Shown here: positions 45,032 through 63,937 of the stretch, piece by piece
How positions within the stretch are numbered: the stretch's first letter is position 1
Layout: the number at the start of each line of letters is the position of its first letter
Origin: Rhodanobacter sp. 67-28
Lineage (GTDB): Bacteria > Pseudomonadota > Gammaproteobacteria > Xanthomonadales > Rhodanobacteraceae
Direction of reading: 5' to 3'
Assembly: GCA_001898415.1 (NCBI GenBank)
Contig: MKTU01000024.1
Coordinates: 62,001-126,000, forward strand
DNA: 64,000 nt
Made by a program: the position numbers and the translations under genes
Notes under the pieces: generated by a model
Database searches by the model: none
Told to the model about the DNA's origin: nothing
The model's input: only the letters and a program-made list of their open reading frames with translations

Positions 45032-45058
45032 GCATCGGGGTAACCGCGGCCGTCGTAC
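45032..45058 (+). promoter_or_regulatory. ECF-like promoter motif before the catalase gene (variant)
   Basis: GCATCG (45032-45037), exactly 16 bases, CGTAC (45054-45058). The -10 block CGTACC is the same as before the SDR gene; the -35 block differs from GCATCC by one base. The site ends about 50 bases before the start codon. Confidence 0.5.
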
Positions 45059-45109
45059 CAGCGAAAGGAACCAGGCACCCTCGTTTCATCTCCATTGACC
45101 GGAGGCTCC

Positions 45110-46219
45110 ATGCTTGATTCCGATCCTGCCGCCATTCCCGCCAGCCGTCGGCGTGCGACCTTGGCATGGCTTGCCATCGCGCTGATCGTCGCCGCCGTCG
45201 CCCTTGCGTTCGCATGGGTCGGCGGCTGGCTGGGTTCCAGCCGTCTCACGTCGCAACGTTTCACCAACGCGATCGAAACCGCCAACGGCCAGGTCTGGCG
45301 CGGGTTTCGCCGGGCTCACGCCAAGGGCGTCTGCGTGGCCGGCTACTTCGAGGGCAACGGGCAGGGAACGGCGCTGTCGAGCGCGCGATTGCTCGCACCG
45401 GTGCGCACGCCGTTCGTCGGCAGGTTGTCGATCGGCGGCGGCTCGCCCTACGGGCTGGACGCCAGGGCGCGCGTGCGCAGCATGGCGCTCAAGCTCGACA
45501 GCGACGACGGCCAGCAATGGCGCATGGCGATGAACAGCTTTCCGTTCTTCGGCGTGTCCTCGGTCGAGGCCTTCTATGAGCAGACCCGCGCCAACACCCC
45601 CGATCCCGCCACCGGCAAGCCCGATCCGGCGCGCCAGGCGGCGTTTGCCAAGGCGCATCCGGAATTCGCCCGCTTCGCCGATTGGGCCGCCCACGCGCCG
45701 TGGTCCACCAGTTGGGCGAACACCACGTTCAACGGCGTCGACACCTTCCGCTTCGTCAACCGCGCCGGCAACGTGCGCAACGTGCGCTGGTCGATGCAGC
45801 CGCAAACCCCGTTTGCCGGGATGACGCCGGAACAACGCGAGCAGGCCGATGCCGATTACCTGGCCGAGGATCTTGCGGCGCGTCTGGCGAAGGGCGAACT
45901 GCGCTGGGACATGGTGGTGACGCTGGCGCAAGCCGACGATCCGGTGAACCCCTCGCAGAGCTGGCCGGAGGATCGCCCGCGGGTCACGGTCGGCACCGTG
46001 GTGGTGGAGAGCAGCAGCGCGCAGGCCACCGGCGCCTGCCGCGACATCAACTACGATCCGCTGGTGCTGCCCACCGGCGTGGAGGCTTCCGACGATCCGA
46101 TCCTGGCGGCGCGTTCGGCCGTCTATTCGGTGTCGTTCAACCGCCGCGAGCACGACATCGCCAGCGGCGAGGCCGGCGCCGCCACCGGCCACGCCGCGAC
46201 ACCGGAGTCGGACCGATGA
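45110..46219 (+). CDS. Catalase-related peroxidase (SrpA family), membrane-anchored
   Basis: A 369-residue short catalase. An N-terminal helix (about 20-42, ATLAWLAIALIVAAVALAF) anchors or exports it. The distal heme His is likely in RRAHAKGVCVAGYFEG, and the proximal Tyr in AVYSVSFNRREHD near the C-terminus. SrpA-type catalases act as periplasmic peroxidases. GGAGG at 45101-45105 sets the start at ATG 45110. It overlaps the cytochrome b561 gene by four bases, the usual pair, so the cytochrome may feed it electrons. Confidence 0.9.
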   Translation: MLDSDPAAIPASRRRATLAWLAIALIVAAVALAFAWVGGWLGSSRLTSQRFTNAIETANGQVWRGFRRAHAKGVCVAGYFEGNGQGTALSSARLLAPVRTPFVGRLSIGGGSPYGLDARARVRSMALKLDSDDGQQWRMAMNSFPFFGVSSVEAFYEQTRANTPDPATGKPDPARQAAFAKAHPEFARFADWAAHAPWSTSWANTTFNGVDTFRFVNRAGNVRNVRWSMQPQTPFAGMTPEQREQADADYLAEDLAARLAKGELRWDMVVTLAQADDPVNPSQSWPEDRPRVTVGTVVVESSSAQATGACRDINYDPLVLPTGVEASDDPILAARSAVYSVSFNRREHDIASGEAGAATGHAATPESDR

Positions 46220-46782
46220 ACCGCGCCGGCAGCTCCGCCCATTTCAACCTGCTCGCCCGCGTGCTGCACTGGACGATGGCGCTGGCGATCCTGGCGATGC
46301 TCTTCGTCGGCGTCGGCATGGTCGCCTCGCTGAGCCTGCGTCCCACCCTGGTGAGCCTGCATCGCCCGCTGGGCATCGCGATCCTCCTGCTGGCGGCGGT
46401 GCGCCTGGCCAATCGCCTGCGCCATCCGCCACCGGCGTTGCCGGCCGACCTGCCGGCCATCCAGAAGGCTGCAGCGACGGCCTCGCACATCCTGCTGTAC
46501 GCCCTGATGTTCGCCATGCCGCTGGTGGGCTGGGCCATGGTGTCGGCTGGCGGCTATCCGGTGACCATGCCCGGCGGGTTCAGCCTGCCGGCGATCGCAC
46601 CGCACGACCCGACGGTGTACGCCGTGTTGCGTACGGCCCATACCTGGCTGGCGTTGCTGCTGTTCGCCGTCGTGCTCATGCATCTGGCGGCGGCGCTGTA
46701 CCACGCCTGGATACGCCGCGATGGCGTGTTCGCCAGCATGGCAAGGGGAGCGGGGCGGCACCGGAGCGATATCCGCTCCTAG
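46216..46782 (+). CDS. Cytochrome b561
   Basis: A 188-residue four-helix diheme cytochrome. Candidate heme His residues lie in ARVLHWTMALAILAML, LVSLHRPLGIAI, ASHILLYALMFAMPLVGW and RTAHTWLALLLFAVVLMH. It moves electrons across the inner membrane; next to the SrpA catalase it probably acts as its reductase partner. Confidence 0.9.
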   Translation: MNRAGSSAHFNLLARVLHWTMALAILAMLFVGVGMVASLSLRPTLVSLHRPLGIAILLLAAVRLANRLRHPPPALPADLPAIQKAAATASHILLYALMFAMPLVGWAMVSAGGYPVTMPGGFSLPAIAPHDPTVYAVLRTAHTWLALLLFAVVLMHLAAALYHAWIRRDGVFASMARGAGRHRSDIRS

Positions 46783-46812
46783 GCCGCCGACGCCGCGCCT
46801 GGTGGCGACAGG

Positions 46813-46839
46813 GCATCCAAATGCGAACGTGCGCCGTAT
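46813..46839 (+). promoter_or_regulatory. ECF-like promoter motif before the lipocalin-TspO-photolyase operon
   Basis: GCATCC (46813-46818), 16 bases, CGTAT (46835-46839), followed by GAGCTG exactly as before folE. It ends 46 bases before the lipocalin start. Confidence 0.7.
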
Positions 46840-46885
46840 GAGCTGCATGTAGCGGTCCTGATCGCAGCAGACGAGATTGCCCCGG

Positions 46886-47464
46886 GTGAAACGCTTGGTC
46901 ATCCTGACGCTCCTCGCCGTGTGGGTGCTGCCCACGCCGGCAGCGCGTGCGCGCCAGTTCGACCCGATCCGGCCGGTGCACACCGCGGATGTGGGTCGCT
47001 ACCTGGGGCGCTGGCATGTCCTCGCTGCCATCACGCCCCGTTTCGAGCGCGACAGCTACAACGCGGTGGAAACCTTCCGGCGCAACGACGACGGCTCGCT
47101 CTGCATCTGGCTGCGCCAGCGCCACGGGGGGTTCGACGCGCCGGCAAGGCTGTTCAAGTCGACCGCGAGCGTGGTCGAGGGCAGCGGCCATGGCGAATGG
47201 CGCGTACGCTTCTTCGCCTTCCTGAGCGCCCGGTATCTGGTCGGCTGGCTGAAGGCCGACGGCACCCAGGCGATGGTGGTGCGCGATGCGCGCGACTATC
47301 TGTGGTTCCTTTCCCGTACGCCCACCGTGTCGGAGGCCGACTACGCCGCCATGCTCGATCGGGCGTCCGCCATGGGGTACGACCCGACCGCGATCCGCCG
47401 GGTGCCCCAGCGCTGGCCCGAGCTTGGCGCAGACCGCGATCGCTTTGCTGGAGAATGCCCGTGA
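46886..47464 (+). CDS. Lipocalin family protein (Blc-like)
   Basis: A 192-residue secreted lipocalin. Signal peptide MKRLVILTLLAVWVLPTPAA ends near residue 24 without a lipobox, so it is periplasmic rather than lipid-anchored. GXW motif in DVGRYLGRWHVLAAI; the Blc-type ending RDYLWFLSRTPTVSEADYAAM is clear. Such lipocalins bind fatty acids or lysolipids and often accompany photo-stress genes. GTG 46886 is chosen for the signal peptide; a TTG three codons upstream is possible. It overlaps the TspO-like gene by four bases. Confidence 0.85.
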   Translation: MKRLVILTLLAVWVLPTPAARARQFDPIRPVHTADVGRYLGRWHVLAAITPRFERDSYNAVETFRRNDDGSLCIWLRQRHGGFDAPARLFKSTASVVEGSGHGEWRVRFFAFLSARYLVGWLKADGTQAMVVRDARDYLWFLSRTPTVSEADYAAMLDRASAMGYDPTAIRRVPQRWPELGADRDRFAGECP

Positions 47465-48222
47465 AATACCTCGTCGTCTTTCTCGCCTGGGCGATGCCCG
47501 TCGTCGCCCGGCTGTCCAACACCGGCGCGTTCGGGCCGACCAATGGCGAAATCTCGGATCGCTATCCCACCCTGATCGTGGCCGCCGGCTACGCGTTCGC
47601 CATCTGGGGGCCGATCTTCGTGCTGGACGCGATCTTCGGCACGCGACAGCTGTTCGAGCGGCACGCCACGGCGGCGCTGCGCCGCATCCGGGGGTTGACG
47701 GCGGCCGGCTTCGCGCTGACCTCGGCATGGATGATCGTGTTCTCGCAGCAGTGGTTCTGGCTCGCGCTGTTCGTCATCTGGGCCAGCCTGGCGTGCCTGC
47801 TCGCAGCCGCCTGGCAGGCGTCGCACACCGCCGGCCACGCGCGCGGGCCGTGGTGGCAGTGGGTCCCGCTGTCGCTGCACGCCGGCTGGGTGTCGCTGGC
47901 GGTGTTCCTCAACCTGGCCCAGGTGATCGTGGCGTTCCGCCTGTTGCCGGTGGCGGACATGCTGGCGTGGACGCTGGTGCTGTTCGCGCTGGCGGCGGCG
48001 CTGGTACTGACCATGATCGTGCGCATGCGCGGCAATCCCTGGTATGCGCTCGCGGCGCTGTGGGGCCTGCTGGGGGTATGCGTGAAACAGCGCAGCGCCG
48101 GCCTGGCCGGCGCGGATGCGGCCGCCAGCGTGGCCCTGCTGCTGGCCGTGGCGGTGCTCTTGGTGTCGCTGGTCTCGACGCTGCGCCAGCGCCGGGCGGC
48201 GACTTCGCCGACGGCGCGCTGA
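47461..48222 (+). CDS. TspO/MBR-like (tryptophan-rich sensory protein family) membrane protein
   Basis: A 253-residue membrane protein with about seven hydrophobic segments. FAIWGPIFVLDAIFGTRQLF and WVPLSLHAGWVSLAVFLNL resemble the long TspO/MBR-like family. True TspO is about 160 residues with five helices, so the extra segments mark the longer bacterial variety. TspO proteins bind porphyrins and affect their light-driven breakdown, which fits ferrochelatase downstream. GTG 47461 follows GGAG by seven bases; an ATG two codons earlier is too close to it. Confidence 0.75.
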   Translation: MKYLVVFLAWAMPVVARLSNTGAFGPTNGEISDRYPTLIVAAGYAFAIWGPIFVLDAIFGTRQLFERHATAALRRIRGLTAAGFALTSAWMIVFSQQWFWLALFVIWASLACLLAAAWQASHTAGHARGPWWQWVPLSLHAGWVSLAVFLNLAQVIVAFRLLPVADMLAWTLVLFALAAALVLTMIVRMRGNPWYALAALWGLLGVCVKQRSAGLAGADAAASVALLLAVAVLLVSLVSTLRQRRAATSPTAR

Positions 48223-48240: not shown

Positions 48241-49770
48241 ATGACCATGCTGCGCCTGCTGCTGGGAGACCAGCTCGACCCCGGACATTCCTGGTTCGCG
48301 GCCAGCGATCCCGACGTGCTCTACGTGCTTATGGAAGTCCGCCAGGAAACGGATTACGTCCTCCACCACGCGCAGAAGATCCTGGCGATCTTCGCCGCCA
48401 TGCGCGACTTCGCCCGCAGGCTGGAGGCGACCGGCCATCGCGTGCGCTATCTCGCGATCGACGATGCGGCCAACCGTCAGTCGATCACCGCCAACCTCGA
48501 CCAGCTGATCCGGGAGTACCGCGTGCGCACGTTCGAATACCAGGCGCCGGACGAGTGGCGCCTGGACCGGCAGCTGGCGGAGTACGCGCAGCACTTGCGC
48601 ATCCCCGCACGGAAGGTGGACAGCGAGCACTTCCTGACCCGCCGCGACGACGTCGCGACATTCTTTGCCGGTCGACGGCGCTGGAAGATGGAGTCGTTCT
48701 ACCGGCACATGCGCGCGAAGCACCGCGTGTTGCTGGACATGCAGGGGCGGCCGGTGGGCGGCCGATGGAACTTCGATGCCGACAATCGCAGGCGCTGGCC
48801 AGGCGCGCCGTCCGAACCGGCCGATGCGCGACCGTCGCACGACCACCGCGCGCTGTGGCGGCGCATCGTGGCCGCCGGCGTGCAAAGCTTCGGGGCGCCC
48901 GAAGCCGGAGCGTTTCGCTGGCCGCTCAACCGGGACGAGGCGCTGCGCCAGCTCGATGCCTTCCTGCGCGACGGGCTCGCCGATTTCGGCGACTACCAGG
49001 ACGCGATGAGCACGCAGGCGCCGCGCCTGTTCCATTCACTGATCTCGTTCGCGCTCAACGTCAAGATGCTTTCGCCAGGCGAGGTGATCGAACGCGCCGA
49101 AGCGTGCTGGCGCGAGGGTCGCGCGCCGCTGGCGGCGGTCGAGGGTTTCATCCGCCAGATCCTCGGCTGGCGCGAGTACGTGCGCGGCGTGTACTGGGCG
49201 CGCATGCCCGTGTACGCCGAGGCCAACTTCTTCGGCCACCGGCGCGATCTGCCGGCCTGGTTCTGGACCGGCGCCACCGGCATGAACTGCCTGCACCAGG
49301 CCATCACGCAGTCGCTGGAGCATGCCCACGCGCACCACATCCAGCGGTTGATGGTGATCGGCAACTTCGCGCTGCTGGCCGGCCTGGACCCCGGACAGGT
49401 GCACCGCTGGTATCTCGGCATCTACGTCGATGCCTTCGAGTGGGTGGAGCTGCCCAACACGCTGGGCATGAGCCAGTTCGCCGATGGCGGCCTGCTGGCG
49501 ACCAAACCCTACGTTTCGTCGGCGAACTACATCCACAGGATGAGCGATTACTGCGCCGGCTGCCGCTACCGGCACGATCAGCGCACCGGCGAACGCGCCT
49601 GTCCGTTCAACGCGTTGTACTGGGATTTCCTGGCACGCCATCACCGCGCACTGGCATCCCATCCGCGCCTCGGCATGGCCCTGCGCCAGCTCGAGCGCAT
49701 GCCGCCCGCACAACGCGCCGAAGTGCTGCGGCGGGCCGAGGTCGTGCTCGGCGATCTCGACGCCTTGTGA
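48241..49770 (+). CDS. Iron-sulfur bacterial cryptochrome/photolyase (FeS-BCP, (6-4) photolyase type)
   Basis: A 509-residue member of the cryptochrome/photolyase-related (DUF523/PhrB Agrobacterium) branch. [17 protein letters not shown] is its typical start. The FAD domain has [14 protein letters not shown] and [16 protein letters not shown]. Cys residues of the predicted [4Fe-4S] cluster lie in TGMNCLHQ and [10 protein letters not shown]...[10 protein letters not shown]. Relatives repair (6-4) photoproducts with a lumazine antenna, noteworthy as ribH is nearby. It follows the TspO-like gene by 18 bases. Confidence 0.9.
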
Positions 49771-49819: not shown

Positions 49820-50854
49820 ATGCCCGACCAAGCCCTGATCCTGGTGAACCTCGGCTCCACGCCCTCCACCGACGTCGCCGACGTGCGGCGTTATCTCGAC
49901 CAGTTCCTGATGGATCGCCACGTCATCGACGTGCCGTGGCCGCTGCGCCGGCTGATCGTCTCGCTGGTGTTGCGCACGCGTCCGGCGGCATCGGCCGCGG
50001 CCTATCGCTCGATCTGGTGGGACGAAGGCTCGCCGCTGCTGGTGATCGGCCGACGCCTGCAGGCGCGGGTGGCCGAACGCTGGCACGGCGCGCCGGTGGA
50101 ACTGGCGATGCGCTACGGCGAACCCTCCATCGAGAAGGTGCTGTGCGACCTCGCCCGCCGCGGCATCCAACGCGCGACCCTGCTGCCGCTGTATCCGCAG
50201 TTTGCCGACAGCACCGTCACCACGGTCCTGGAAGAGGCGCGGCAGACCCTGCAGCGCCATCGCCTGCGGCTGCAGCTGGATCTGGTTGCGCCGTTCCATG
50301 ACCGGCCGGAGTACCTGTCCGCGCTCGGCGCCAGCATGCGGCCCTATCTGGCGCAGCCGCACGACCATCTGCTGCTGAGCTATCACGGCCTGCCCGAGCG
50401 TCACATCCGCAAGGCGGACCCGACCGGCCGGCACTGCCTGTGCGGTCCGTCGTGCTGCCTAGAGCCTCCGGCAAACGTGCTGGAGCGCTGCTATCGCGCC
50501 CAATGCGTGCGCACCAGCGAGCGCCTGACCGCCGCACTCGGCGTCCCGCACGAGCGCTGGTCGCTGGCGTTCCAGTCGCGGCTGGGCCGCGCGAAGTGGA
50601 TCGAACCGCATACCGACGTCGTGCTCAAGGAGCTGGCTGCGCAGGGCGTACGCCGATTGCTCGTGGCCTGCCCGGCGTTCGTGGCCGATTGCATCGAGAC
50701 CCTGGAGGAGATCGGGATCCGCGGACGCGAAACCTTCCTCGCCGCCGGCGGCGAGGAGCTCACCCTGATCCCGTGCCTCAATGACCAGCCACAGTGGGTC
50801 GATGCCGTCGCGGCGCTCTCCCGACAGCCTTCGGGCAAACCCCTGGCCGCCTGA
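49820..50854 (+). CDS. hemH: Ferrochelatase HemH with a Cys-rich insert
   Basis: Ferrochelatase, 344 residues, inserts Fe2+ into protoporphyrin IX. Catalytic His in [15 protein letters not shown] and Glu in [12 protein letters not shown]. Between them residues 205-229 hold six Cys (206, 208, 212, 213, 224, 229) in HCLCGPSCC and CYRAQC. Cys-rich centres occur in some bacterial ferrochelatases and bind a [2Fe-2S] cluster in a few. Rapid removal of photosensitising protoporphyrin would suit the photo-stress context. It follows the photolyase by 49 bases. Confidence 0.93.
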
Positions 50855-50877: not shown

Positions 50878-50904
50878 GCATCCGGATGGCCCGGTGCTGC
50901 GTAT
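50878..50904 (+). promoter_or_regulatory. ECF-like promoter motif before folE
   Basis: GCATCC (50878-50883), 16 bases, CGTAT (50900-50904). The next bases GAGCTG repeat those before the lipocalin operon. Confidence 0.7.
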
Positions 50905-50977: not shown

Positions 50978-51703
50978 ATGCAAACAGCACCCTCCGATGT
51001 GGCATCCATTCGCCATGCCGATGCCACCGCCATCTCGGACCGCATCCGCCACCGCCTGCGCGAGGCCGGCGCACGGTTCCACGCCAACGACAACCTGGCG
51101 GAGTTCATCCGGCCCGGCGAGCTGGACGAACTGCAACGGGAGGTGGCCGACAAGGCGGACGCGCTGCTGCGCGCCCTGGTGATCGACGTCGAGCACGACC
51201 ACAACACCCGCGAGACCGCAAAGCGGCTGGCCAAGATGTTCGTGCGCGAGGTCTTCGCGGGCCGCTATCGGGCCGCGCCCGAGGTCACCGAGTTTCCCAA
51301 CGTGCAGCATCTGAACGAGCTGATGATCGTCGGGCCGATGCGCGTGCGCAGCGCCTGTTCGCACCACCTGTGCCCGATCATGGGACGCGTGTGGGTGGGC
51401 GTCATGCCCCATGCCGCATCCAACCTGATCGGCTTGTCCAAGTACGCGCGACTGATCGACTGGGTGATGAGCCGGCCGCAGATCCAGGAGGAAGCGGTGG
51501 TGCAGATCGCCGACCTGCTCGAATCACGCCTGCGGCCCGACGGCCTCGCCGTGGTGCTGGAAGCCGATCATTACTGCATGCACTGGCGCGGCGTGAAGGA
51601 CGATGGCGCCAGGATGGTGAACAGCGTGATGCGCGGATCCTTCCTCGAGGACACCTCGTTGCGAAAGGAATTCCTGAGCCTGTTGGCCGAGCGCAGGGCT
51701 TGA
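50978..51703 (+). CDS. folE: GTP cyclohydrolase I FolE
   Basis: A 241-residue type I GTP cyclohydrolase making dihydroneopterin triphosphate. Zinc ligands are in CSHHLCPIMGRVWVGVMP (Cys, His) and ADHYCMHWRGVKDDGARMV (Cys). Start ATG 50978 gives MQTAPSDVASIRHAD. Its place in this island, away from folate genes, suggests a stress-linked paralogue supplying pterins, for example a photolyase antenna or an antioxidant. Confidence 0.93.
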   Translation: MQTAPSDVASIRHADATAISDRIRHRLREAGARFHANDNLAEFIRPGELDELQREVADKADALLRALVIDVEHDHNTRETAKRLAKMFVREVFAGRYRAAPEVTEFPNVQHLNELMIVGPMRVRSACSHHLCPIMGRVWVGVMPHAASNLIGLSKYARLIDWVMSRPQIQEEAVVQIADLLESRLRPDGLAVVLEADHYCMHWRGVKDDGARMVNSVMRGSFLEDTSLRKEFLSLLAERRA

Positions 51704-52609: not shown

Positions 52610-53335
52610 TCACTTTCCGGCAATGGCCGCGCGCCCGCCATCCACGCCGATCACTTGCCCGGTCATCCAGCCGGAGCGCGGCCAGAGCAGGTGGGCGGCA
52701 AGTTGGGCGATGTCTTCGGGTTCTCCCAGGCGGCCCAAGGGATGGGCTGCGGCGAACGCCTCGCGAAGCTTCGGGTTGGCCACCATGCGTGCGGCCAGCG
52801 GCGTCCGGATGAGCGATGGCGCAATCGCGTTGACCCGCACCGCGGGTGCCAGTTCGGCGGCAAGCGACCGGGTCAGACCCTCTACCGCCGCCTTGGCCAT
52901 GGCGATGGACGCATGCGACGGAAAGCCGCGCGATGCTGCTACGGAGGAAAACAGCACCACGGACGCACCGGTGGTGCTTTTGCGCAGCGACGGCAGGGCC
53001 GCCCGGACGGCCAGCGCGGCGCCGATCGCGTTCAGCCGGTAATCGTGGGCCAGGTCAGCTTCGGAGACGCGCGAGATCGGCTTCACCGCGATGTTGCCGA
53101 CCGCATAGACCAGGCCGTCGAGGCTCGCGGGCGCAGCCTCGGTCACCGCCGCAAAGGATGCTTCATCCAGTACGTCGGCCACCGTCCATGTCGCCCCCAG
53201 GGATTGCGCCAATGGTCGCAACGTCTCCTCATGGCGCGCCACCAGGTGCAACTGCGATCCCGTATCGGCGAGTAGCCGGGCCAGGCATGCGCCGACGCCG
53301 CCCGTGGCGCCGTAGATGAGTATGGATGAGGACAT
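52610..53335 (-). CDS. Short-chain dehydrogenase/reductase lacking the catalytic Tyr
   Basis: A 241-residue classical-looking SDR. Cofactor loop YGATGGVGACLARLLA (TGxxxGxG), VGN at residue 81, catalytic-type Ser in VVLFSSVAAS. In the active-site helix ASIAMAKAAVEGLTRSL the Lys (148) is kept but the Tyr four residues before is Ile144, so normal proton transfer looks impossible. It may be a regulatory or binding protein or use other residues. It has its own ECF-like site and is divergent from the MipA-type porin. Confidence 0.85.
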   Translation of the reverse strand: MSSSILIYGATGGVGACLARLLADTGSQLHLVARHEETLRPLAQSLGATWTVADVLDEASFAAVTEAAPASLDGLVYAVGNIAVKPISRVSEADLAHDYRLNAIGAALAVRAALPSLRKSTTGASVVLFSSVAASRGFPSHASIAMAKAAVEGLTRSLAAELAPAVRVNAIAPSLIRTPLAARMVANPKLREAFAAAHPLGRLGEPEDIAQLAAHLLWPRSGWMTGQVIGVDGGRAAIAGK

Positions 53336-53364: not shown

Positions 53365-53391
53365 GTACGGAGATCCGGTGCGAATGGATGC
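53365..53391 (-). promoter_or_regulatory. ECF-like promoter motif before the SDR gene
   Basis: On the minus strand GCATCC (53391-53386), 16 bases, CGTAC (53369-53365). It ends 30 bases before the SDR start codon at 53335. Confidence 0.68.
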
Positions 53392-53467: not shown

Positions 53468-53494
53468 GCATCCGCCGGTGGACGCGCTCCGTAT
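53468..53494 (+). promoter_or_regulatory. ECF-like promoter motif before the MipA-type porin
   Basis: GCATCC (53468-53473), 16 bases, CGTAT (53490-53494), 75 bases before the start codon. It is divergent from the SDR site 75 bases to the left. Confidence 0.68.
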
Positions 53495-53569: not shown

Positions 53570-54337
53570 ATGCTTCCCCCCTTCCTCTGGATCGTTGTTG
53601 CCGGGTTGCTCTGCGCGTGCTGCTCGGAGGCCTTCGCCGCCGGGGAGACGGCCTCGCGCCGGGTACAGCGAGGCTGGCAAGCCGGTGCCATCGCGCTGGT
53701 CAGCAACGGTGGCTATGCCGGTTCCTCCCGTCGCCAGCTGGTGGTTCCCGCGGCGGCTTACGAAGGCGAGCACGCCTTCCTGCGCGGCCTGCAACTCGGC
53801 TGGCATGCCTGGCAACGCGACGACTGGCGGCTGGACCTGGTGGCGCAGGCACGGCTCGACGGATTCGATGCCGACGACATTCCCCTGGACGGTCTTCGGG
53901 ACCGGCGCCGGAGCATGGATGTCGGCGCCGTGTTGACCCGCTCCGGCAGGCTGGGAAACCTGCAGCTGACCGTGCTGACCGATGCCTTGTCGCGAAGCCG
54001 CGGGCAGGAGCTCGCCCTGCAGTACGGCTATCCGCTGCGGTTCGGCAAATGGCGCGTCACGCCCGGCCTGGGTGTGCGCTGGTGGTCGCCCCGGCTTGCC
54101 GACTATTACTACGGCATCCATCCTTCCGAGGCAGCCAACGGCGCACCGGGGCCCTATGCCGTTCCCGGCGTGCTGGTGCCGGAAGCCAGCCTCGGCGCGG
54201 TGGCTCCGATGGGTCGCCGCTGGACGTTCTGGAGTGCCCTGAAGTACCAGCGGCTGCCTCGCGCGATCACCGACAGTCCGCTGGTGGAGCGCTCCTCGGC
54301 AAGCACCGTGCTGGCGGGTTTCGTCTACGCCTTCTGA
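53570..54337 (+). CDS. MipA/OmpV-family outer membrane protein
   Basis: A 255-residue beta-barrel protein. Signal peptide MLPPFLWIVVAGLLCACCSE with a cut after AFA near residue 23. The MipA/OmpV pattern includes VTPGLGVRWWSPRLADYYYG and the terminal strand VLAGFVYAF. GGAG nine bases before ATG 53570 fixes the start. Members scaffold murein enzymes or act as porins; role here is unknown. Confidence 0.8.
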   Translation: MLPPFLWIVVAGLLCACCSEAFAAGETASRRVQRGWQAGAIALVSNGGYAGSSRRQLVVPAAAYEGEHAFLRGLQLGWHAWQRDDWRLDLVAQARLDGFDADDIPLDGLRDRRRSMDVGAVLTRSGRLGNLQLTVLTDALSRSRGQELALQYGYPLRFGKWRVTPGLGVRWWSPRLADYYYGIHPSEAANGAPGPYAVPGVLVPEASLGAVAPMGRRWTFWSALKYQRLPRAITDSPLVERSSASTVLAGFVYAF

Positions 54338-54427: not shown

Positions 54428-55324
54428 CTAATCGGCGAGCTCAAGCGCCGTACGTGGACGGATCAGCTCGCGCAACAGCGGATTGGGAAAACGCCGCTTC
54501 ATGGTGACGGCAAAAAAGGTCTCGCTGAGCTGCGGCAACTGGTGAACCTCCACCAGGCGGCCGCTGCTCAATTCATCCTTGACCACGATCGGCGGAACCA
54601 CCGCCAGGCCGACGTCCTCCCGGGCGATCAGTCGCAGCATCGCCATGTCGTCGATCTCCGCCGCCACCCGCACTTTCCAGCCCATGCGTTCGACCAGCGC
54701 GTCGAATCCGATGCGCACGCTGCTCTCCATCGTCGGCAGCACGAGGGGTTGCCTGGTCAGCAGTGTCTTCAGCGTGCCGCCCTTGCCGATGCGTTTCGGC
54801 GTTCCGATCAGGCTGACGGGTTGTTCGGCAATGGCGTGGGAAACCCAGGGAGTGGCCGCATCGCGGGCGGGCGCGACATTGACCAGCGCCACGTCCAGCC
54901 GGTGTGCTTCCAGGCTTTGCAACAGGAAGGCGGTGGTGCCCGAGCGAACGATGACCTCGACATTCCGGCGTCCCAGCAATGGCCGCAGGAAACCGATCTG
55001 GAAATTGCGCGACAGCGTGGCCAATGCCCCGACCCTGAGAATCGCACGCCGGCCGCCGGAGCGCTGCTTGAGCGTGGCGAGCAGGTCGCCACCGGTGGCG
55101 AAGATCGATTCCGCGTGGTCGAAGGCGATGCGCCCGGCTTCCGTCAGCACGAGTTGCCGGCCGCTGCGTTCGAACAGGTCCTGCCCCAGCTGAGCCTCGA
55201 GCTTCCTGATCTGGATCGACAGCGCCGACTGCGAGATCAGCAGCTTCTCCGCGGCGCGCGTGAGGTTTCCCTCGCGGGCGACTGCCCAGAAGTAGCGCAA
55301 GTGGTTGTAGTTCAGTGCGGCCAT
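54428..55324 (-). CDS. LysR-family regulator of the dab operon
   Basis: A 298-residue LysR regulator, NhaR-like. The DNA-binding domain is NYNHLRYFWAVAREGNLTRA and KLLISQSALSIQIRKLEAQLG; a periplasmic-binding-type effector domain follows (about 95-295). It is divergent from dabB with 104 bases between, the standard LysR arrangement, so it probably activates the operon in answer to low CO2 or a related metabolite. Confidence 0.88.
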   Translation of the reverse strand: MAALNYNHLRYFWAVAREGNLTRAAEKLLISQSALSIQIRKLEAQLGQDLFERSGRQLVLTEAGRIAFDHAESIFATGGDLLATLKQRSGGRRAILRVGALATLSRNFQIGFLRPLLGRRNVEVIVRSGTTAFLLQSLEAHRLDVALVNVAPARDAATPWVSHAIAEQPVSLIGTPKRIGKGGTLKTLLTRQPLVLPTMESSVRIGFDALVERMGWKVRVAAEIDDMAMLRLIAREDVGLAVVPPIVVKDELSSGRLVEVHQLPQLSETFFAVTMKRRFPNPLLRELIRPRTALELAD

Positions 55325-55327
55325 GCA

Positions 55328-55381
55328 ATCATTCTATTTTGTATATCGACAGGTTTCGTTAAATGAATTTTTTAGAATGAT
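55328..55381. promoter_or_regulatory. Inverted-repeat operator in the lysR-dabB gap
   Basis: ATCATTCTA (55328-55336) and TAGAATGAT (55373-55381) form a perfect 9-bp inverted repeat 36 bases apart, in a strikingly AT-rich stretch for this genome. Each half contains TAGAAT, a -10-like hexamer, facing outward. LysR regulators bind such paired sites; this is a candidate. Confidence 0.55.
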
Positions 55382-55428
55382 GCGCGAAGCGTAGGCTTGC
55401 CGCGGCTCACCTGACCGCGGAGTGATTG

Positions 55429-57015
55429 ATGTTGCCTGCCCTTGCGACGCTGTTTCTGCTTGCCCCCGCCAGCCTGTTGTTGGCGACCCTGTTTCCTTCA
55501 CGGCCGGGACCTCGTCGGCCGCACGCCATGCTTCTCGCAAGCCGCCTGGCGACGTGGTTTTGCCTGGTGCTCGCGGTGCTGGCCTGCCTGCTGACCGCGT
55601 GGGAAGGCCCGGCCACCAGCGGGTTGCTGGGAGACAATGGCATCGGCTTGTCGGTCAGGCTGGATGCCATCAGTTGCACCATGTTCCTGCTGGTCGCCTT
55701 CGTCGGCGTCGTCGTGGTCCAGTACAGCCGCAACTACATGGACGGCGAGCCGCGCCAGGGCGCCTTCATGGCCGGCCTGTGCCGGACGCTGGCAGCCGTG
55801 ACGCTGCTGGTCTTCGCGGGCAACCTCGTGCAGCTGGTGGTTGCGTGGGTGGCGATGAGCCTCTCCCTGCACCGCTTGCTGGTGTTCTACCCGGAGCGCC
55901 GACCCGCAAGGATTGCCGCCCGCAAAAAGTTCCTCGCCGCCCGCCTCGGTGATGCGTGCATGCTCGGTGCCGCCGCCCTGCTGGTGACCACGTTCGGCAC
56001 GACCGACCTGGCCACCGTGCTGGCCCGGGCGCAGGCCATCGCCGCCGACGCCGCGCCGCCCGCACTCTCGCTGGCGGCCTTGCTGCTGGGTGTCGCGGCA
56101 CTCATGAAGTCGGCGCAGTTCCCCACCCACGGCTGGCTGCCGGAGGTGATGGACACGCCGACGCCGGTGTCGGCCCTGTTGCATGCGGGCATCATCAATG
56201 CGGGTGGATTCCTGTTGATCCGCTTTGCCGACGTGATGGTGCTCTCGATGCCGACGCTGCACGGCGTTGCCATCGTGGGCGGCTTCACCGCCTTGTTCGG
56301 CGGCGTGGTGATGCTGACCCAGACCAGCGTGAAAGGATCGCTGGCTTTCTCGACCGTGGCGCAGATGGGTTTCATGACACTGCAATGCGGGCTCGGCGCG
56401 TTCGCGATCGCGCTGCTTCACCTGGTCGCCCATTCGCTGTACAAGGCCCACGCCTTCCTCTCGGCCGGGGGCGTGGTGGAAACCGAGACGCTGCCGCGTT
56501 TCGCCAGGCCGCGCCTGCGCCCCGTCCTGCTGAGCCTGTTGCTGGCGACCGCGATCTACGTGCTGTTTGCCTGGGTATTCGGAACCTTCGTGCGGGCGGA
56601 GCCTGCCGTGCTGACCCTGGGCGCGATCCTGGTGATGGGCGTCAGCATGCTGCTGGCATCGTCACTGCAAGGGGCCACCACTTCCCGCCTGGTTGTGCAG
56701 ACCCTGCTCGGGGCCGCCGGAACCACGCTGGCCTATTTCATCCTGGAAACCGCCTTCACGCGGCTGACCGCCGGCAGCCTGCCGGCGATTCCCCGGCCCG
56801 ACGGCACGGGCCTGCTGATCATGGGGCTGGCCATCGCATCGTTCACCGCGGTCACCGTGCTGCAAAGCCTGGTCGTGCTGTGGAACCAGCGGCCGCTCTG
56901 GCGGGCGGCACGCGTCCACCTGGCCAACGGCCTCTACGTCAACGCCATCTTCAATCGCCTGGTGGGTGCCTTGCGTCGGGAAGACGCGCGCCATCACGCC
57001 CGGACCATCGCCTGA
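55429..57015 (+). CDS. dabB: DabB, NuoL-like proton-conducting subunit of DAB inorganic carbon transporter
   Basis: A 528-residue NuoL/NDH-family membrane protein with about 13-14 hydrophobic segments. The proton-channel motif shows as MKSAQFPTHGWLPEVMDTP, with TPVSALLHAGIINAGGFLLI and TQTSVKGSLAFSTVAQMGFM. There are no other nuo genes around, and dabA follows after ten bases, so it is the cation-coupling partner that drives vectorial hydration of CO2. ATG 55429 is the best start. Confidence 0.93.
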   Translation: MLPALATLFLLAPASLLLATLFPSRPGPRRPHAMLLASRLATWFCLVLAVLACLLTAWEGPATSGLLGDNGIGLSVRLDAISCTMFLLVAFVGVVVVQYSRNYMDGEPRQGAFMAGLCRTLAAVTLLVFAGNLVQLVVAWVAMSLSLHRLLVFYPERRPARIAARKKFLAARLGDACMLGAAALLVTTFGTTDLATVLARAQAIAADAAPPALSLAALLLGVAALMKSAQFPTHGWLPEVMDTPTPVSALLHAGIINAGGFLLIRFADVMVLSMPTLHGVAIVGGFTALFGGVVMLTQTSVKGSLAFSTVAQMGFMTLQCGLGAFAIALLHLVAHSLYKAHAFLSAGGVVETETLPRFARPRLRPVLLSLLLATAIYVLFAWVFGTFVRAEPAVLTLGAILVMGVSMLLASSLQGATTSRLVVQTLLGAAGTTLAYFILETAFTRLTAGSLPAIPRPDGTGLLIMGLAIASFTAVTVLQSLVVLWNQRPLWRAARVHLANGLYVNAIFNRLVGALRREDARHHARTIA

Positions 57016-57025
57016 GGAGCCGCCC

Positions 57026-59542
57026 ATGAACGCCATCGCATTGAAGATCAGGGAACAAGCCGATCCCATCCCACCTTCCTCCGACATCGGGGCAGGGCGT
57101 GCATGTGAAGCCGCGCAGCGCGCGTGTGGACGCATCGCGCCACTGTGGCCGCTGAAGAATTTCGTGGCCGTCAATCCCTTCCTCGGCATGGCCGACCGCC
57201 GCTTCGGCGAGGTCGCGCGCGTCATGGCCGAGGTGGCAGGCGCCCGCATGACCATGCCGCGCGCGTTCTACCGCGACGCCATCGCCCAGGGTCGCATCAC
57301 CGACCGGGATCTTGGCCAGGCCCTGCTGCGCAAGGGAAGTGCCGCCCCTCGCACCCTCGACGTCGCGGCGCTGCGCCGCCAACTGCAAACCGAGGATGTG
57401 GCAACGCATGCGCCGCTGCCGACCGTTGCCGACGTCGCCGGCAAGCTGACCGGACGGGACTGGGCCAGCTTTGCCGGCGAGCGGGTCTCGCTGTGGGCGG
57501 CCGGCTACTTCGACGCGGGGCAGGCGCTGTGGCCAGCGTCGACACGGCACCTGGGCCCTTATGCGGCCTGGCGTGAGGAGGCCGCCATCGATCGCACGCC
57601 CCAGGTCATGGGGCTCGCCGGATTCCACCGCACGATCGGCGCGCTTCCTGCCACTGCCGAAGCGATGATCGCCCATGGAGCGGCCCGCCTGAAGATGGAC
57701 GAACCGGGCCTTGCCGATTATTTCCACCGGCTGCTGATGAGCGTGGGCGGCTGGGCCGGCTACGCCCGCTACCAGGTCTGGCAAAGCGAGCTGGCGGGGC
57801 GCCGCGACGACACCTTGCTCGAACTGCTGGCGATACGGCTGGCTTTCGAGGTGGCGCTGCTGGAAACGTGCCAGCCGGTCGCCGCACTGGCGGCCGGATG
57901 GGAGCAGGCCCGCGCATGTTTCGCTGCACCGGCCTGCGAAAACGAGCCGGCCGCGCCGACGCTGGAAGAAATCCTGCAGGACGCCTACGAAATCGCCTGG
58001 CAGCGATGCTTCCTCGCCAAACTCGCCGCGCCGCGGCCGTCCGTGATCGCCATGCGTCCGGCGGTGCAGGCGGCCTTCTGCATCGACGTGCGCTCCGAAA
58101 CCTTCCGGCGCGCGCTGGAGAAAGTGGCGCCCGGCGTGGAGACGCTGGGCATGGCCGGCTTTTTCGGCATGCCGATGGAGTATGTGCCGCTCGGTCGGGG
58201 CCAGGGTGGTCCCCGCTGCCCGGTGTTGCTGGCACCCGGCCTGTCGGTGCACGAGACCGTCAAGGGCGCGACGGCGCAGGAGCAAGCCGACATCGCCACG
58301 CGGCGGCGGCGGCGGCTTCGCGCCATCGGCCAATGGCGCTGGTTCAAGCTGGCCGCGGTGTCGTCGTTCACCTTCGTCGAAGCGATGGGATGGAAATTCG
58401 CCGGCAAGCTCATCGCCGACAGCCTGGGCTTCACCCGGCCCGAAGCGCACCCGGCGGAGCGCGGTATCGACGCCGCTGCACTCACGCGACTGGCGCCGGA
58501 CATCACGCCCTCGACCGCGAACGACCGCGCCACCGGCATGCCGCTGGAAACCAGGGTCGCGCTGGCAGAGGGCGCCCTGCGCGCCATGTCGCTGCGGCAG
58601 CAGTTCGCGCGCGTGGTGCTGTTCGTCGGGCACGGCGCCAGCTCGGTCAACAACCCGCATGCCAGCGGCCTGGATTGCGGGGCCTGCGGTGGGCACGCAG
58701 GCGATGCCAACGCACGGGTGGCGGCCGCCGTGCTGAACGACCGCGAGGTGCGCCAGGCCTTGGCGGGACGCGGCACGGTGATTCCCGACGAGACGCATTT
58801 CCTCGGCGCGCTGCACGACACCACCACCGACCAGGTGACGATCTTCGACACCGACGGCTTGCCGGCGACGCATGCCGACGACCTGGCCCGACTGCAGGCA
58901 GCGCTGGCCGAGGCCGGCCGGGTGACCCGGCAGGAACGTGCCGCCATCCTTACCTTGCACGACCGGCGCCCGGTCGAGCGCCAGCTCCTGGCGCGCAGCA
59001 GGGACTGGAGCGAGGTGCGGCCGGAGTGGGGCCTGGCCGGCTGCGCGGCCTACATCATCGCCCCGCGCAGCCGCACCGCGGGCCTCGACCTGGCGGGGCG
59101 TGCCTTCCTCAATTCCTACGACTGGCAGCGCGATGACGGCTTCAAGACCCTGGAATCCATCATGACCGCGCCGATGATCGTGGGCGCGTGGATCAGCCTG
59201 CAGTATTACGGCTCGGCGGTGGACAACCGGGTCTTCGGAAGCGGCAACAAGACGCTCCACAACGTGGTCGGCAAGCTGGGCGTGCTGGAGGGCAATGGCG
59301 GCGACCTGCGCACCGGCTTGCCATGGCAGTCGCTGCATGACGGCAAGCGCTATGTCCATGAGCCGCTGCGGCTGTCCGTCGTCATCGCCGCTCCGCTGGA
59401 CGCCATCAACGCCATCGTCGCCAGGCATGAAGCCGTGCGGCACCTGTTCGACCACGGCTGGGCCCACCTGTTCGCCTTCGGCGACAAGCCAGGGTCCATG
59501 CATCGCTACACCGGCCATCTGACCTGGGAGGACGCGGCATGA
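57026..59542 (+). CDS. dabA: DabA, beta-carbonic-anhydrase-like zinc subunit of DAB transporter
   Basis: DabA (UPF0753/DUF2309), 838 residues. The zinc site is complete: Cys352 and Asp354 in AAFCIDVRSETF, His536 in VGHGASSVNNPHAS and Cys551 in GLDCGACGG. The His-Cys spacing of 15 matches the known Halothiobacillus protein. DabAB accumulates bicarbonate by membrane-potential-driven, one-way CO2 hydration in the cytoplasm. GAGGAG lies upstream of ATG 57026. It overlaps the Sua5 gene by four bases. Confidence 0.95.
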   Translation: MNAIALKIREQADPIPPSSDIGAGRACEAAQRACGRIAPLWPLKNFVAVNPFLGMADRRFGEVARVMAEVAGARMTMPRAFYRDAIAQGRITDRDLGQALLRKGSAAPRTLDVAALRRQLQTEDVATHAPLPTVADVAGKLTGRDWASFAGERVSLWAAGYFDAGQALWPASTRHLGPYAAWREEAAIDRTPQVMGLAGFHRTIGALPATAEAMIAHGAARLKMDEPGLADYFHRLLMSVGGWAGYARYQVWQSELAGRRDDTLLELLAIRLAFEVALLETCQPVAALAAGWEQARACFAAPACENEPAAPTLEEILQDAYEIAWQRCFLAKLAAPRPSVIAMRPAVQAAFCIDVRSETFRRALEKVAPGVETLGMAGFFGMPMEYVPLGRGQGGPRCPVLLAPGLSVHETVKGATAQEQADIATRRRRRLRAIGQWRWFKLAAVSSFTFVEAMGWKFAGKLIADSLGFTRPEAHPAERGIDAAALTRLAPDITPSTANDRATGMPLETRVALAEGALRAMSLRQQFARVVLFVGHGASSVNNPHASGLDCGACGGHAGDANARVAAAVLNDREVRQALAGRGTVIPDETHFLGALHDTTTDQVTIFDTDGLPATHADDLARLQAALAEAGRVTRQERAAILTLHDRRPVERQLLARSRDWSEVRPEWGLAGCAAYIIAPRSRTAGLDLAGRAFLNSYDWQRDDGFKTLESIMTAPMIVGAWISLQYYGSAVDNRVFGSGNKTLHNVVGKLGVLEGNGGDLRTGLPWQSLHDGKRYVHEPLRLSVVIAAPLDAINAIVARHEAVRHLFDHGWAHLFAFGDKPGSMHRYTGHLTWEDAA

Positions 59543-61456: not shown

Positions 61457-62298
61457 TGCCATCGGATCGCGTCGTGATCGCCACCATGCACGGCAAGGAG
61501 GCGGTGATTGCCCCTCTGTTGCAGCGGGCCCTGGGTCTGCAGCCACTCTTGCCGGCCGGATTCGATACGGACCGGTTCGGCACCTTCAGCCGAGACATTC
61601 CCCGCCTCGATTCCCCGCATGCAACGGCAAGGGCCAAGATCGCGGCAGCCCTGGAGTGCGTGCCCGAGGCGCATGCCGGTGTTGCCAGCGAGGGCAGCTT
61701 CGGCCCCCATCCACAAATCCCGTTCGTGCCGATCGACAGCGAGCTGGTGATGCTTGTGGATCGTCGCGATGGCGTCGAAATCATCGGAACGCATGTCACG
61801 CCGCGCACCAATTACGCCCAGCGCGTGGTGGCGGATGCGCGCCTGGCCGTCGCCTTCGCCGAAGGCATCGGCTTTCCCCGGCATGGGGTGATCGTGACGG
61901 CTGCGGTTGACGGCAAGTCCCACCCGGCGCTCTTGCTGCGCAAGGACAACCTGAGCCGGGCGCAATTGCTGGCCAATGTCGTCGATGCCATTGCCATCAG
62001 CGGCGCGGCCTGCGTGGAAACGGACATGCGCGCATGCAGCAACCCGACGCGGATGCGTGCCATCAAACGCGCGACCATCGATCTCGTGCGGCGCTACCGA
62101 TCCTGTTGCCCTCAATGCGGACGACGCGGATTCGTGCCCACCGAACGCATCGCCGGCCTGCCGTGCGGGGCCTGTCACGCACCCACCGACATGATCCGTG
62201 GCGTGGTCGCGATCTGCGCGGGCTGTGGTCATCGCCGCGAGCAATCGTTCGAGGCGGCGTGGGCCGATCCCGGGCGCTGCGATTTCTGCAATCCGTGA
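61456..62298 (+). CDS. DUF6671-like protein with C-terminal zinc ribbons
   Basis: A 280-residue protein I place in DUF6671 from memory. The N-terminal 200 residues have no catalytic motif I know; RVVIATMHGKEAVIAPLLQ and ETDMRACSNPTRMRAIK stand out. The C-terminus carries four Cys pairs: CCPQCG, CGAC, CAGC and CDFC, likely two zinc ribbons. Its ATG shares a base with the CysD stop, so it is the last gene of the dab operon. Function is unknown. Confidence 0.7.
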   Translation: MPSDRVVIATMHGKEAVIAPLLQRALGLQPLLPAGFDTDRFGTFSRDIPRLDSPHATARAKIAAALECVPEAHAGVASEGSFGPHPQIPFVPIDSELVMLVDRRDGVEIIGTHVTPRTNYAQRVVADARLAVAFAEGIGFPRHGVIVTAAVDGKSHPALLLRKDNLSRAQLLANVVDAIAISGAACVETDMRACSNPTRMRAIKRATIDLVRRYRSCCPQCGRRGFVPTERIAGLPCGACHAPTDMIRGVVAICAGCGHRREQSFEAAWADPGRCDFCNP

Positions 62299-62658
62299 CC
62301 CGCCACCCGGAGGTCGATGATCCGGAACGTGGCCTCTGGTGATGGCTTCTCCCGCATCCGGCCTGCTCGTGCCGTGGCGGGGATCAGCGCAATTCCTTCC
62401 TGCATCGCCGCAGGCATCCCTGAGGACTGGGGTGAGTTCAGCCCCCTCACGACCACGCCGGCATGCCCACGCCCGGAGCGATCCGCTTTTCACGAGCATG
62501 TCGCGCGATCCACAGCGTGCACATCGGTTCCGCACAAATTCAATCCAAAACTCGCGGCCAACCGTATAGACACTCGCGTCGGGGCATTTCCCAGCGCGAA
62601 GCAGGACTCTCTGCCCGAGGGTCTCGAACCGGTTTGTCCCCCTATTGGAGATGCCAAC
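62299..62658. other. Intergenic region before the OmpW-type gene
   Basis: This 360-base gap has no supported gene. A weak ECF-like motif lies at 62541-62567, and GGAG precedes the ompW-type start. No terminator for the dab operon was found. Confidence 0.5.
62541..62567 (+). promoter_or_regulatory. ECF-like promoter motif before the OmpW-type gene (weak)
   Basis: CAATCC (62541-62546), 16 bases, CGTAT (62563-62567). The -10 block and spacer match the other sites; only four of six -35 bases do. Confidence 0.4.
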
Positions 62659-63285
62659 ATGAAAGTTTTCCCCCTGATTGTCGCCGCTTGCGCCTTGGCT
62701 GTTGCCGGTGCCGGCAGTGCCCGGGCCCAGGATTACAGCGCGCCAGGCTTCTACGGCGCGGTGGGCTACAGCGGTGTCGCACCCAGGAGCAACAACGGCG
62801 TGCTGGCGGGCGCCTTCCAGTCCAGCATCGGCGATGACTGGGAGCCGACCCTCACGCTGGGCTATCGCTTCGCGCCGAACTGGGGCGCCGAGCTGTGGCT
62901 GCCGTTCGTGAAGTTCGAGCACGACGTGAAGCTCGATGGCGCGAAGTCCGCCACCATCAAGCACATGCCGCTGCTGCTCACCGCCCAGTACCACTTCCTC
63001 GCCGACCAGGCGTGGCAGCCCTTCGTCGCCCTGGGCTATGGCTGGGTGAACGTGAGCGACGAGCGCACCACGGGCCCCATCGCGGGCACGAACCTGGACG
63101 TGAAGGACGGCAGCGGTGTCGTCGGGCAGCTGGGCCTGGATTTCCACGCCACGTCGAACGTGTTCGTGCGTGCCGATGCGAAGTACTTCAACTGGAGCAG
63201 CGACGTGAGGCTCAACGGGGCGGGCATCGGCAAGGCGAAGGTAGACCCCTGGATCTACGGCATCAGCGTCGGCTACAGCTTCTGA
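62659..63285 (+). CDS. OmpW-family outer membrane protein
   Basis: A 208-residue eight-stranded barrel. Signal peptide MKVFPLIVAACALAVAGAGS, cut after ARAQ. OmpW-style strands: WEPTLTLGYRFAPNWGAELW, PLLLTAQYHFLADQAWQPFV and the final GISVGYSF. GGAG eight bases before ATG 62659. OmpW proteins are small porins for hydrophobic compounds. Confidence 0.88.
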   Translation: MKVFPLIVAACALAVAGAGSARAQDYSAPGFYGAVGYSGVAPRSNNGVLAGAFQSSIGDDWEPTLTLGYRFAPNWGAELWLPFVKFEHDVKLDGAKSATIKHMPLLLTAQYHFLADQAWQPFVALGYGWVNVSDERTTGPIAGTNLDVKDGSGVVGQLGLDFHATSNVFVRADAKYFNWSSDVRLNGAGIGKAKVDPWIYGISVGYSF

Positions 63286-63316
63286 CGTCTGCTGCCGCCG
63301 CATCGCCTGAAACCGC

Positions 63317-63386
63317 CCGTCGTCCCGGCGCAAGCCGGGACTCCAGGTCTGTCGGACGCTGGATGCCTCATCTCGCCGGGACGACA
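63317..63386. repeat. REP-like inverted pair between convergent genes
   Basis: GTCCCGGC / GCCGGGAC (63322-63329 / 63334-63341) forms an 8-bp hairpin with GCAA loop. A second copy of GTCGTCCCGGCG (63319-63330) lies inverted at 63374-63385. It sits between the 3' ends of the OmpW-type and MAPEG genes. Confidence 0.7.
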
Positions 63387-63447
63387 AGCAGCTGGCCGCA
63401 CGCCCGCCGGAGCGTCTCCATGCAGTGGTCCGGAGGGTTTGCCGGGT

Positions 63448-63840
63448 TCAGCGCAGCAATGGTTCCACCATCTGCAGGATGCCCCACAGGCTGGCGGCCC
63501 ACACGGCCGTACGCAGGTAGGGGATGCCCACCACATAGATCGGCAGATACGCGACTCGCGTCCAGAAATAGACCTGCGCCCCGATCGCGGTGTGCGCATC
63601 GGTCTGCTGTGTCGCCATCACCGCCAAGGTCGCCGCGGCGAAGAAGGCGAAAGTCTCGAGGAAATTGTGGCTGGCGCGGGCGGCGCGTGCGGCGGGCCCG
63701 CGAAGCGGCTCGGGGTCGCCGTCGCGGTTGCCGACATTCCAGCGCAGGCCACGCTGCCATGTGCCCAGCGCGGCAGCGAACAGCACGTAAACGATCCCGA
63801 GCAGCACCGACCAGCCCAGCATCTGCAATTCAGTCGTCAT
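63448..63840 (-). CDS. MAPEG family membrane protein
   Basis: A 130-residue, four-helix MAPEG (microsomal GST-like) protein: MLGWSVLLGIVYVLFAAAL at the start, ARASHNFLETFAFFAAATL and ARVAYLPIYVVGIPYLRTAVW. Members conjugate glutathione or reduce lipid peroxides. ATG 63840 is chosen since a longer reading only adds an unrelated soluble lead. It carries an upstream ECF-like site. Confidence 0.85.
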   Translation of the reverse strand: MTTELQMLGWSVLLGIVYVLFAAALGTWQRGLRWNVGNRDGDPEPLRGPAARAARASHNFLETFAFFAAATLAVMATQQTDAHTAIGAQVYFWTRVAYLPIYVVGIPYLRTAVWAASLWGILQMVEPLLR

Positions 63841-63910
63841 CTCCAACTCTCCCGGCAGGTCCACAACGTCAAGACGCGGCCACGCACGCCACCGGCGGGC
63901 CATGGGTGTT

Positions 63911-63937
63911 GTACGTTGCCAGCCAGCCTATGGATGC
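63911..63937 (-). promoter_or_regulatory. ECF-like promoter motif before the MAPEG gene
   Basis: On the minus strand GCATCC (63937-63932), 16 bases, CGTAC (63915-63911), 70 bases before the start codon. Confidence 0.65.

Follow-up and report, generated by a model that had tools for sequence, protein, structure and literature searches.

Promoters of the form GCATCC-N16-CGTA in Rhodanobacter sp. 67-28 very probably belong to an ECF11 RpoE–ChrR regulon with an altered −35 element

In a 64,000-nucleotide (nt) stretch of the Rhodanobacter sp. 67-28 genome (hereafter the window; positions 62001-126000 of contig C24, MKTU01000024.1, from a 4.08-Mb assembly of 82 contigs), a two-block motif, GCATCC-N16-CGTA, recurs upstream of several genes, and the question that it raises is which regulator reads it. 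The original prediction took the motif to mark a new stress regulon governed by an extracytoplasmic function (ECF) sigma factor whose gene lies outside the window. Our comparisons make it very probable, from sequence, that five copies of the motif in the window are promoters of an ECF11-type RpoE, and the gene for this sigma factor does lie elsewhere, in an rpoE-chrR-photolyase unit on contig C82. The window regulon is nevertheless a new instance of the known ECF11 RpoE–ChrR regulon and not a new regulon type, its genes overlapping with published targets of such systems (a photolyase-related protein together with a short-chain dehydrogenase/reductase (SDR), hemH2, a fasciclin gene and a lipocalin gene).

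Searching both strands of the window yielded six exact copies, five of them directed into genes; these five had all been predicted, and their coordinates, strands and N16 spacing were verified. They end 30–76 nt 5′ of the start codons, where a distance of 30–75 bases had been given:

46813..46838, + strand: putative promoter of the lipocalin unit, exact match (then T), 47 nt to GTG 46886
50878..50903, + strand: putative folE promoter, exact match, 74 nt to ATG 50978
53366..53391, − strand: putative promoter of the SDR gene, exact match, gap of 30 nt
53468..53493, + strand: putative promoter of the MipA gene, exact match, gap of 76 nt
63912..63937, − strand: putative promoter of the MAPEG gene, exact match, gap of 71 nt
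61813..61838, − strand: sixth exact copy, absent from the original prediction, within a DUF6671 gene of the + strand and probably a chance match

With the alternative folE start at ATG 50918 the gap would be 14 nt, and the site at the MAPEG gene is overlapped by a same-strand open reading frame that has no Pfam match. Base composition leads one to expect 0.12 exact copies, in agreement with the earlier estimate of about 0.12, and dinucleotide shuffles gave a mean of 0.06 and a maximum of 2 in 100. When the spacing was varied from N8 to N26, six copies were found at N16 and 0–2 at any other spacing, so that only N16 was enriched.

A search of the genome for possible readers identified ECF-type sigma region 4 (PF08281) at 24 loci and a ChrR cupin at three, with C82 as the single place where both occur: rpoE (ATG at 1404) is followed there by chrR (1955–2617), with a photolyase gene directly behind. 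RpoE carries PF04542 and PF08281, and its best PDB match is Rhodobacter sphaeroides RpoE (2q1z_A, E 3e-30). ChrR scores 174 bits against TIGR02451 (cut-off 124.5), contains PF12973, has 2z2s and 2q1z as best solved relatives and, as judged by alignment to the R. sphaeroides ChrR positions, retains all eight zinc ligands, namely H6, H31, C35 and C38 (HxxxCxxC) and the H, H, E and H of the cupin. In front of rpoE lies GAATCC-N16-CGTAT, at −173 (C82:1231), so that an rpoE/chrR pair preceded by the same kind of motif, which the original prediction proposed to look for as a check, does exist. Scanning the 24 PF08281 and three ChrR-cupin loci returned this site (in locus L027 and again in L044). Five further matches in L022, L026 and L032 were not read as promoters of the sigma genes there.

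Beyond the rpoE site, an exact copy at C82:5365 precedes an operon whose genes encode a fatty acid desaturase, a UfaD-like flavin amine oxidase, a UfaO-like DUF1365 protein and a methyltransferase of the cfa type; we infer that the amine oxidase and the DUF1365 protein are the equivalents of UfaD and UfaO, whose roles are described in PMC7380195. Another exact copy, C36:134547 (L014), lies ~48 nt before a gene for a fasciclin-domain protein, and this gene is likely one more member of the regulon, beyond those in the window. The whole genome holds 18 exact copies, or 19 sites once the rpoE variant is counted, and their relation to gene starts was mixed. By hand, eight of the 19 are promoter-like (the five in the window, C82:1231, C82:5365 and C36:134547), an automatic test finding a coding-like start downstream in only five of these eight; of the other 11, seven lie in coding-like sequence, one in the DUF6671 gene, and three (L002, L004 and L013) were placed in no class.

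The R. sphaeroides-like sigma factor, the adjacent zinc/cupin ChrR and a motif copy in front of the sigma gene are all features of ECF11 membership, and the core ECF11 targets are represented by the photolyase behind chrR and by the motif-bearing desaturase-amine oxidase-DUF1365-cfa operon. In comparison with the R. sphaeroides ECF11 pair (PMC6852236, PMC7074977, PMC7380195), RpoE and ChrR are homologous over most of their length and the eight zinc ligands are shared. Targets common to both include genes for furan fatty acids, fasciclin and a photolyase as well as a folE-type gene (for Rhodobacter, PMC7074977 names folE2 and a fasciclin gene as part of the RpoE regulon), with the genes for the photolyase-related protein, lipocalin, HemH, MipA and MAPEG as likely extra targets here. 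Promoters of Pseudomonas syringae PSPTO_1043 read TGATCC-N16-CGTA, with gcATCC at the PSPTO_4231 promoter in the published table (PMC5507510), and those of Shewanella oneidensis RpoE2–ChrR have TGATCC with CGTATT, the predicted targets including hemH2 and a photolyase-related protein with an SDR (PMC4336711). Both systems share with ours the CGTA −10 element, the spacing of 16 and a copy of the motif ahead of the sigma gene and differ in their TGATCC −35 element; in S. oneidensis, moreover, the partner of hemH2 is a periplasmic glutathione peroxidase. Vibrio cholerae promoters are given as TGATC-N16-18-CGTAW (PMC5241685). The likeness to TGATCC/CGTA promoters noted in the original prediction thus held for CGTA and the N16 layout but not for the −35 element: instead of the TGATCC published for systems related to R. 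sphaeroides RpoE–ChrR, including those of three gammaproteobacteria, it reads GCATCC or GAATCC. We regard TGATCC versus GCATCC as a promoter difference between lineages that does not define the protein family.

In Stenotrophomonas maltophilia, which belongs to the same bacterial order as Rhodanobacter, a sigmaEc–ChrR system controls a desaturase-oxidoreductase-cfa-lipocalin cluster, and is reported to act in superoxide tolerance and not on singlet oxygen (PMC11832516). Four records titled S. maltophilia (L225, L227, L228 and L233) have GCATCC-N16-CGTA before rpoE, and GCATCC may already be in print for this species, the box being printed only as a figure (PMC11832516). The best matches of a literature search contained no recognisable account of GCATCC as an ECF11 −35 element or of an exchange of RpoE–ChrR for SigK–RskA. 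By analogy with studied relatives, ChrR would hold RpoE in a zinc-dependent complex and would be lost upon photo-oxidative or related stress, whereupon RpoE–RNA polymerase would read GCATCC (−35) and CGTA (−10). The genes then switched on would serve DNA repair (photolyases), the protection of membrane lipids (desaturase, enzymes of furan and cyclopropane fatty acids, and lipocalin), the removal of porphyrins (hemH) and the supply of pterins (folE), among other functions.

Among 78 genomes of the family, RpoE was found in 25 and ChrR in the same 25. The core ATCC-N16-CGTA lies 5′ of rpoE in 23 of 24 testable loci (the 25th, with only 118 nt upstream, was left out), always with spacing 16 and preceded by GC in 20, GA in two and GG in one; by chance this 8-base core would occur ~0.004 times per 450 nt. 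The core at N16 also precedes folE orthologs in 8/8 loci and SDR orthologs in three of four, the fourth lying directly behind chrR, and the motif is found at the desaturase operon in all 25 RpoE-positive genomes. Lipocalin orthologs of 56–59% identity have the core upstream in six relatives (G022, L214, L215, L216, L219 and L232), a seventh (L173, 61% identity) having just 12 nt of upstream sequence; in L219 and L232 the order is lipocalin, membrane protein, photolyase-related gene, motif and folE, as in the window but without hemH between. Lipocalins of ≤47% identity mostly have no motif within 300 nt (it occurs in three rows from two genomes), and many of them sit in the cfa operon and are not orthologs of the window lipocalin. 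For the photolyase-related gene, the upstream flank (≤1500 nt) contains the motif in 11 of 12 testable RpoE-positive loci versus one of six testable RpoE-negative ones, where the copies are more distant (43–48% identity) and the genomes all carry a SigK-type sigma factor.

In other bacteria LitR controls photolyase, folE and SDR genes, which would suit a different view: the motif would be bound by a light-responsive repressor of the LitR/CarH type, or by another regulator, and would be no sigma promoter at all. We consider this extremely unlikely for two separate blocks at a fixed spacing of 16, oriented into genes, in the layout of the published ECF11 promoter and placed before rpoE itself in nearly every testable locus.

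The original prediction had also included a catalase and OmpW as regulon members, on the basis of two weaker copies:

45032..45057, + strand: weak copy GCATCG-N16-CGTA before a catalase-like gene, one mismatch
62541..62566, + strand: weak copy CAATCC-N16-CGTA before ompW, two mismatches

At ≤2 mismatches, however, the window holds 48 matches versus 40 expected by chance, and a Rhodanobacter metagenome-assembled genome (MAG; L206), the sole relative found with orthologs of both genes, has no motif before either, so these copies are unsupported and both genes probably fall outside the regulon. Such chance-level copies, and the 11 of 19 genome sites not counted as promoter-like, are what one would expect if the motif were a product of chance matching in GC-rich DNA, an explanation whose probability we regard as negligible for the strong copies: it is contradicted by the spacing scan and by the conservation of the folE, SDR, lipocalin and desaturase sites in relatives, as well as by the six exact copies where shuffling predicts 0.06.

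The −35 element that distinguishes these promoters was followed through 46 rpoE neighbourhoods from Lysobacterales, including five MAGs whose titles go no further than Proteobacteria or Pseudomonadota. In these neighbourhoods GCATCC-N16-CGTA has 94 copies, compared with 0–4 at every other spacing from N8 to N26, and TGATCC-N16-CGTA is absent from all 46 and found once in 12 family regions; the 156 N16 core matches in the two sets together are preceded by GC in 128 cases, GA in nine, GG in seven and TG in one. TGATCC-N16-CGTAY gave scattered matches in family genomes and none in the genome of the window. Outside this order, TGATCC or TGATCT was found at the same place before rpoE in Zhongshania, Neptunomonas, Neptuniibacter, Pokkaliibacter, one Mesorhizobium and eight further gammaproteobacteria, and AGATCC at the Endozoicomonas rpoE locus.

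We then aligned 96 sigma sequences, 67 G-type, 18 T-type (four of them accepted with a 7/8 motif match), one A-type and 10 without an accepted motif, some genomes being counted twice, as a family entry and a named record. Named rpoE loci numbered at least 80 among the matches listed, and 56 of 80 were kept, the 24 dropped being a fragment (L242) and 23 alphaproteobacterial loci below 8/8 at spacing 16 (two had 7/8 at spacing 16, two 7/8 at spacing 18, one 8/8 at spacing 15 and the rest nothing). Because the one alphaproteobacterial locus retained (L258, Mesorhizobium) was kept for its motif, that subset is selected on outcome. From the class search, 15 of 26 rows were used, leaving out L290 (the same Rhodanobacter genome again) and L306–L315, of which three were scanned and had no HxxxCxxC downstream. 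With gap-rich columns skipped, only columns 140 and 171 separated G-type from T-type sequences without overlap, and of these two it is 171 alone that belongs to the −35 recognition helix: Arg occupies it in 66 of 67 G-type and Leu in 17 of 18 T-type sequences (Glu and Ser being the exceptions), and among the loci without an accepted motif Leu is found in five and Arg in four. Going by the residues that PMC6713349 gives, position 171 corresponds to R176 of Escherichia coli sigmaE, one of two arginines bonded to the G at −35. The change of −35 element thus apparently goes together with that of residue 171, and a contact of Arg171 of Rhodanobacter RpoE with the G at −35, suggested by this analogy, would explain GCATCC here and TGATCC in the Leu lineages. 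Since the G-type loci make up what is essentially a single clade, these counts do not stand for independent events and reflect one evolutionary change seen many times.

Several observations weigh against RpoE as the reader of all these sites. The motif is weakly conserved at MAPEG orthologs (core within 300 nt in one of five rows, two of which have ≤76 nt upstream), and no MipA ortholog was found among the loci compared, so that a promoter of MipA is proposed from the motif. One genome, G047 (L077/L289), has RpoE–ChrR and the desaturase motif and none before rpoE or the photolyase-related gene. The rpoE of G047 lies directly behind the desaturase-lipocalin cluster, whose transcript it may share. 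Raw counts of GMATCC-N16-CGTAY per genome average 10.0 in RpoE-positive genomes (n=25, 6–16) versus 8.1 in RpoE-negative ones (n=53, 0–17), the latter splitting into 9.8 with a SigK-type sigma factor alone (n=16) and 7.4 with neither (n=37). As a test of RpoE dependence such counts were rejected, the group means being close and the ranges overlapping widely; the reversed-pattern control (0–5 per genome) seems to lie below the true background. Lastly, the desaturase motif is kept without RpoE in 15/15 genomes with a SigK-type sigma factor alone and in two of four with neither sigma factor. Since the motif persists in RpoE-lacking genomes, the motif alone does not prove RpoE.

These genomes bring in another candidate. 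Mycobacterial SigK reads CCATCC and controls a similar amine oxidase-DUF1365-cfa operon and fasciclin proteins. Two RpoE-lacking genomes, G055 (L286) and G070 (L287), keep the motif before the desaturase operon and encode an ECF sigma factor with an RskA-type anti-sigma (PF10099 in G070). Their operons lie at L286:5385-6281 and L287:10764-11720, with the SigK/RskA-type pair within 5 kb. Across the family, a SigK-type sigma factor occurs in 24 of 78 genomes, with an adjoining RskA-like gene in 24/24, and the desaturase in 44: 25/25 RpoE-positive genomes, 15/16 with the SigK-type factor alone and 4/37 with neither. In the 44 desaturase upstream regions, all of them examined, the motif was found in 25/25, 15/15 and 2/4, respectively. 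The SigK-type gene lies ≤5 kb from the desaturase in 12 of 15 SigK-only genomes and in none of eight with both sigma factors, four of which have the two genes on different contigs. In G022 both sigma systems lie within ~9 kb (L282:6555-15230), around a photolyase and a lipocalin-photolyase-related unit. Against a SigK-type factor as the reader, no 8-of-8 match at N16 was found upstream of the SigK-type gene itself in 22 of 24 family loci; in a SigK-type pair from another family (L307) the motif precedes the sigma gene at −186. PMC7509140 supports only SigK autoregulation from the Rv0449c promoter and conservation of a SigK site in Yersinia. The pair of the RpoE-lacking relatives, near the same operon and motif, resembles this SigK–RskA system (ECF18/ECF19), which differs from RpoE–ChrR in its RskA-type anti-sigma in place of a zinc-binding ChrR.

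It could therefore be argued that another ECF sigma factor of the Rhodanobacter genome, particularly a SigK/RskA-type one, reads the window promoters, as the desaturase operon retains GCATCC- or GAATCC-N16-CGTA in every one of the 15 RpoE-lacking, SigK/RskA-bearing genomes that have it and SigK-type sigma factors, too, have Arg at the key helix position. We judge this very unlikely. The genome of the window has no match to the relatives' SigK-type sigma factor at E≤1e-25, and RpoE therefore remains the likely reader there; the best SigK-type matches among this genome's compared loci are below 30% identity, except for a short 38% piece, the RskA query had no match among these compared loci (a part of the genome), and in the scan of its ECF loci only rpoE was preceded by the motif. 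For the relatives, the distribution suggests replacement of RpoE–ChrR by SigK–RskA, a picture that is incomplete given two genomes, G016 and G037 (L375 and L376), that keep the desaturase motif although the searches, at their thresholds, found neither RpoE nor a SigK-type sigma factor; in these two the motif may be read by a more divergent sigma factor or by some third reader.

The candidate RpoE targets in the window, with all genes of the lipocalin unit, are the following:

46886..47464, + strand: lipocalin (Lipocalin_2; PF08212, E 3e-29)
47461..48222, + strand: conserved membrane protein, second gene of the lipocalin unit, no Pfam match
48241..49770, + strand: deoxyribodipyrimidine photolyase-related protein (PF04244 DPRP, E 3e-74)
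49820..50854, + strand: hemH, ferrochelatase (TIGR00109, 233 bits, cut-off 124.6)
50978..51703, + strand: folE, GTP cyclohydrolase I (best models GTP cyclohydrolase I, below cut-offs: 150 vs 162 bits)
52610..53335, − strand: SDR (PF13561, E 3e-49)
53570..54337, + strand: MipA/OmpV-type outer-membrane protein (PF06629, E 4e-42)
63448..63840, − strand: MAPEG-family membrane protein (PF01124, E 2.5e-21)

This folE and the folE2 of Rhodobacter presumably belong to different protein families. The membrane protein at 47461-48222 matched neither Pfam nor, with a six-sequence profile, the PDB, so the label TspO that it had been given is unsupported; lying between the lipocalin and the photolyase-related gene, it is 69–73% identical in relatives. 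Elsewhere in the window (54428-59542), inspection by eye showed a NuoL-like gene and a large DUF2309-like gene that lie divergently from a LysR-type gene and, by their sequence, resemble a DabB/DabA inorganic-carbon uptake pair.

For Rhodanobacter, assignment to RpoE would give a regulator to window genes that otherwise bear only generic names, and would extend the likely RpoE–ChrR targets of this group by hemH and folE and, with less certainty, by MipA and MAPEG. The −35 change would represent a natural case of promoter–sigma covariation, in which one base and one helix residue differ between the order and its relatives. Beyond this, we tentatively entertain, with slightly less than even confidence, that in Lysobacterales a Leu-to-Arg exchange rewrote TGATCC to GCATCC and thereby matched the unrelated SigK/RskA element, that the two systems can run one regulon, and that several genera have swapped the pairs with their promoters unchanged. 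The family would then offer a candidate case of sigma-factor exchange in which the promoters of the regulon are retained.

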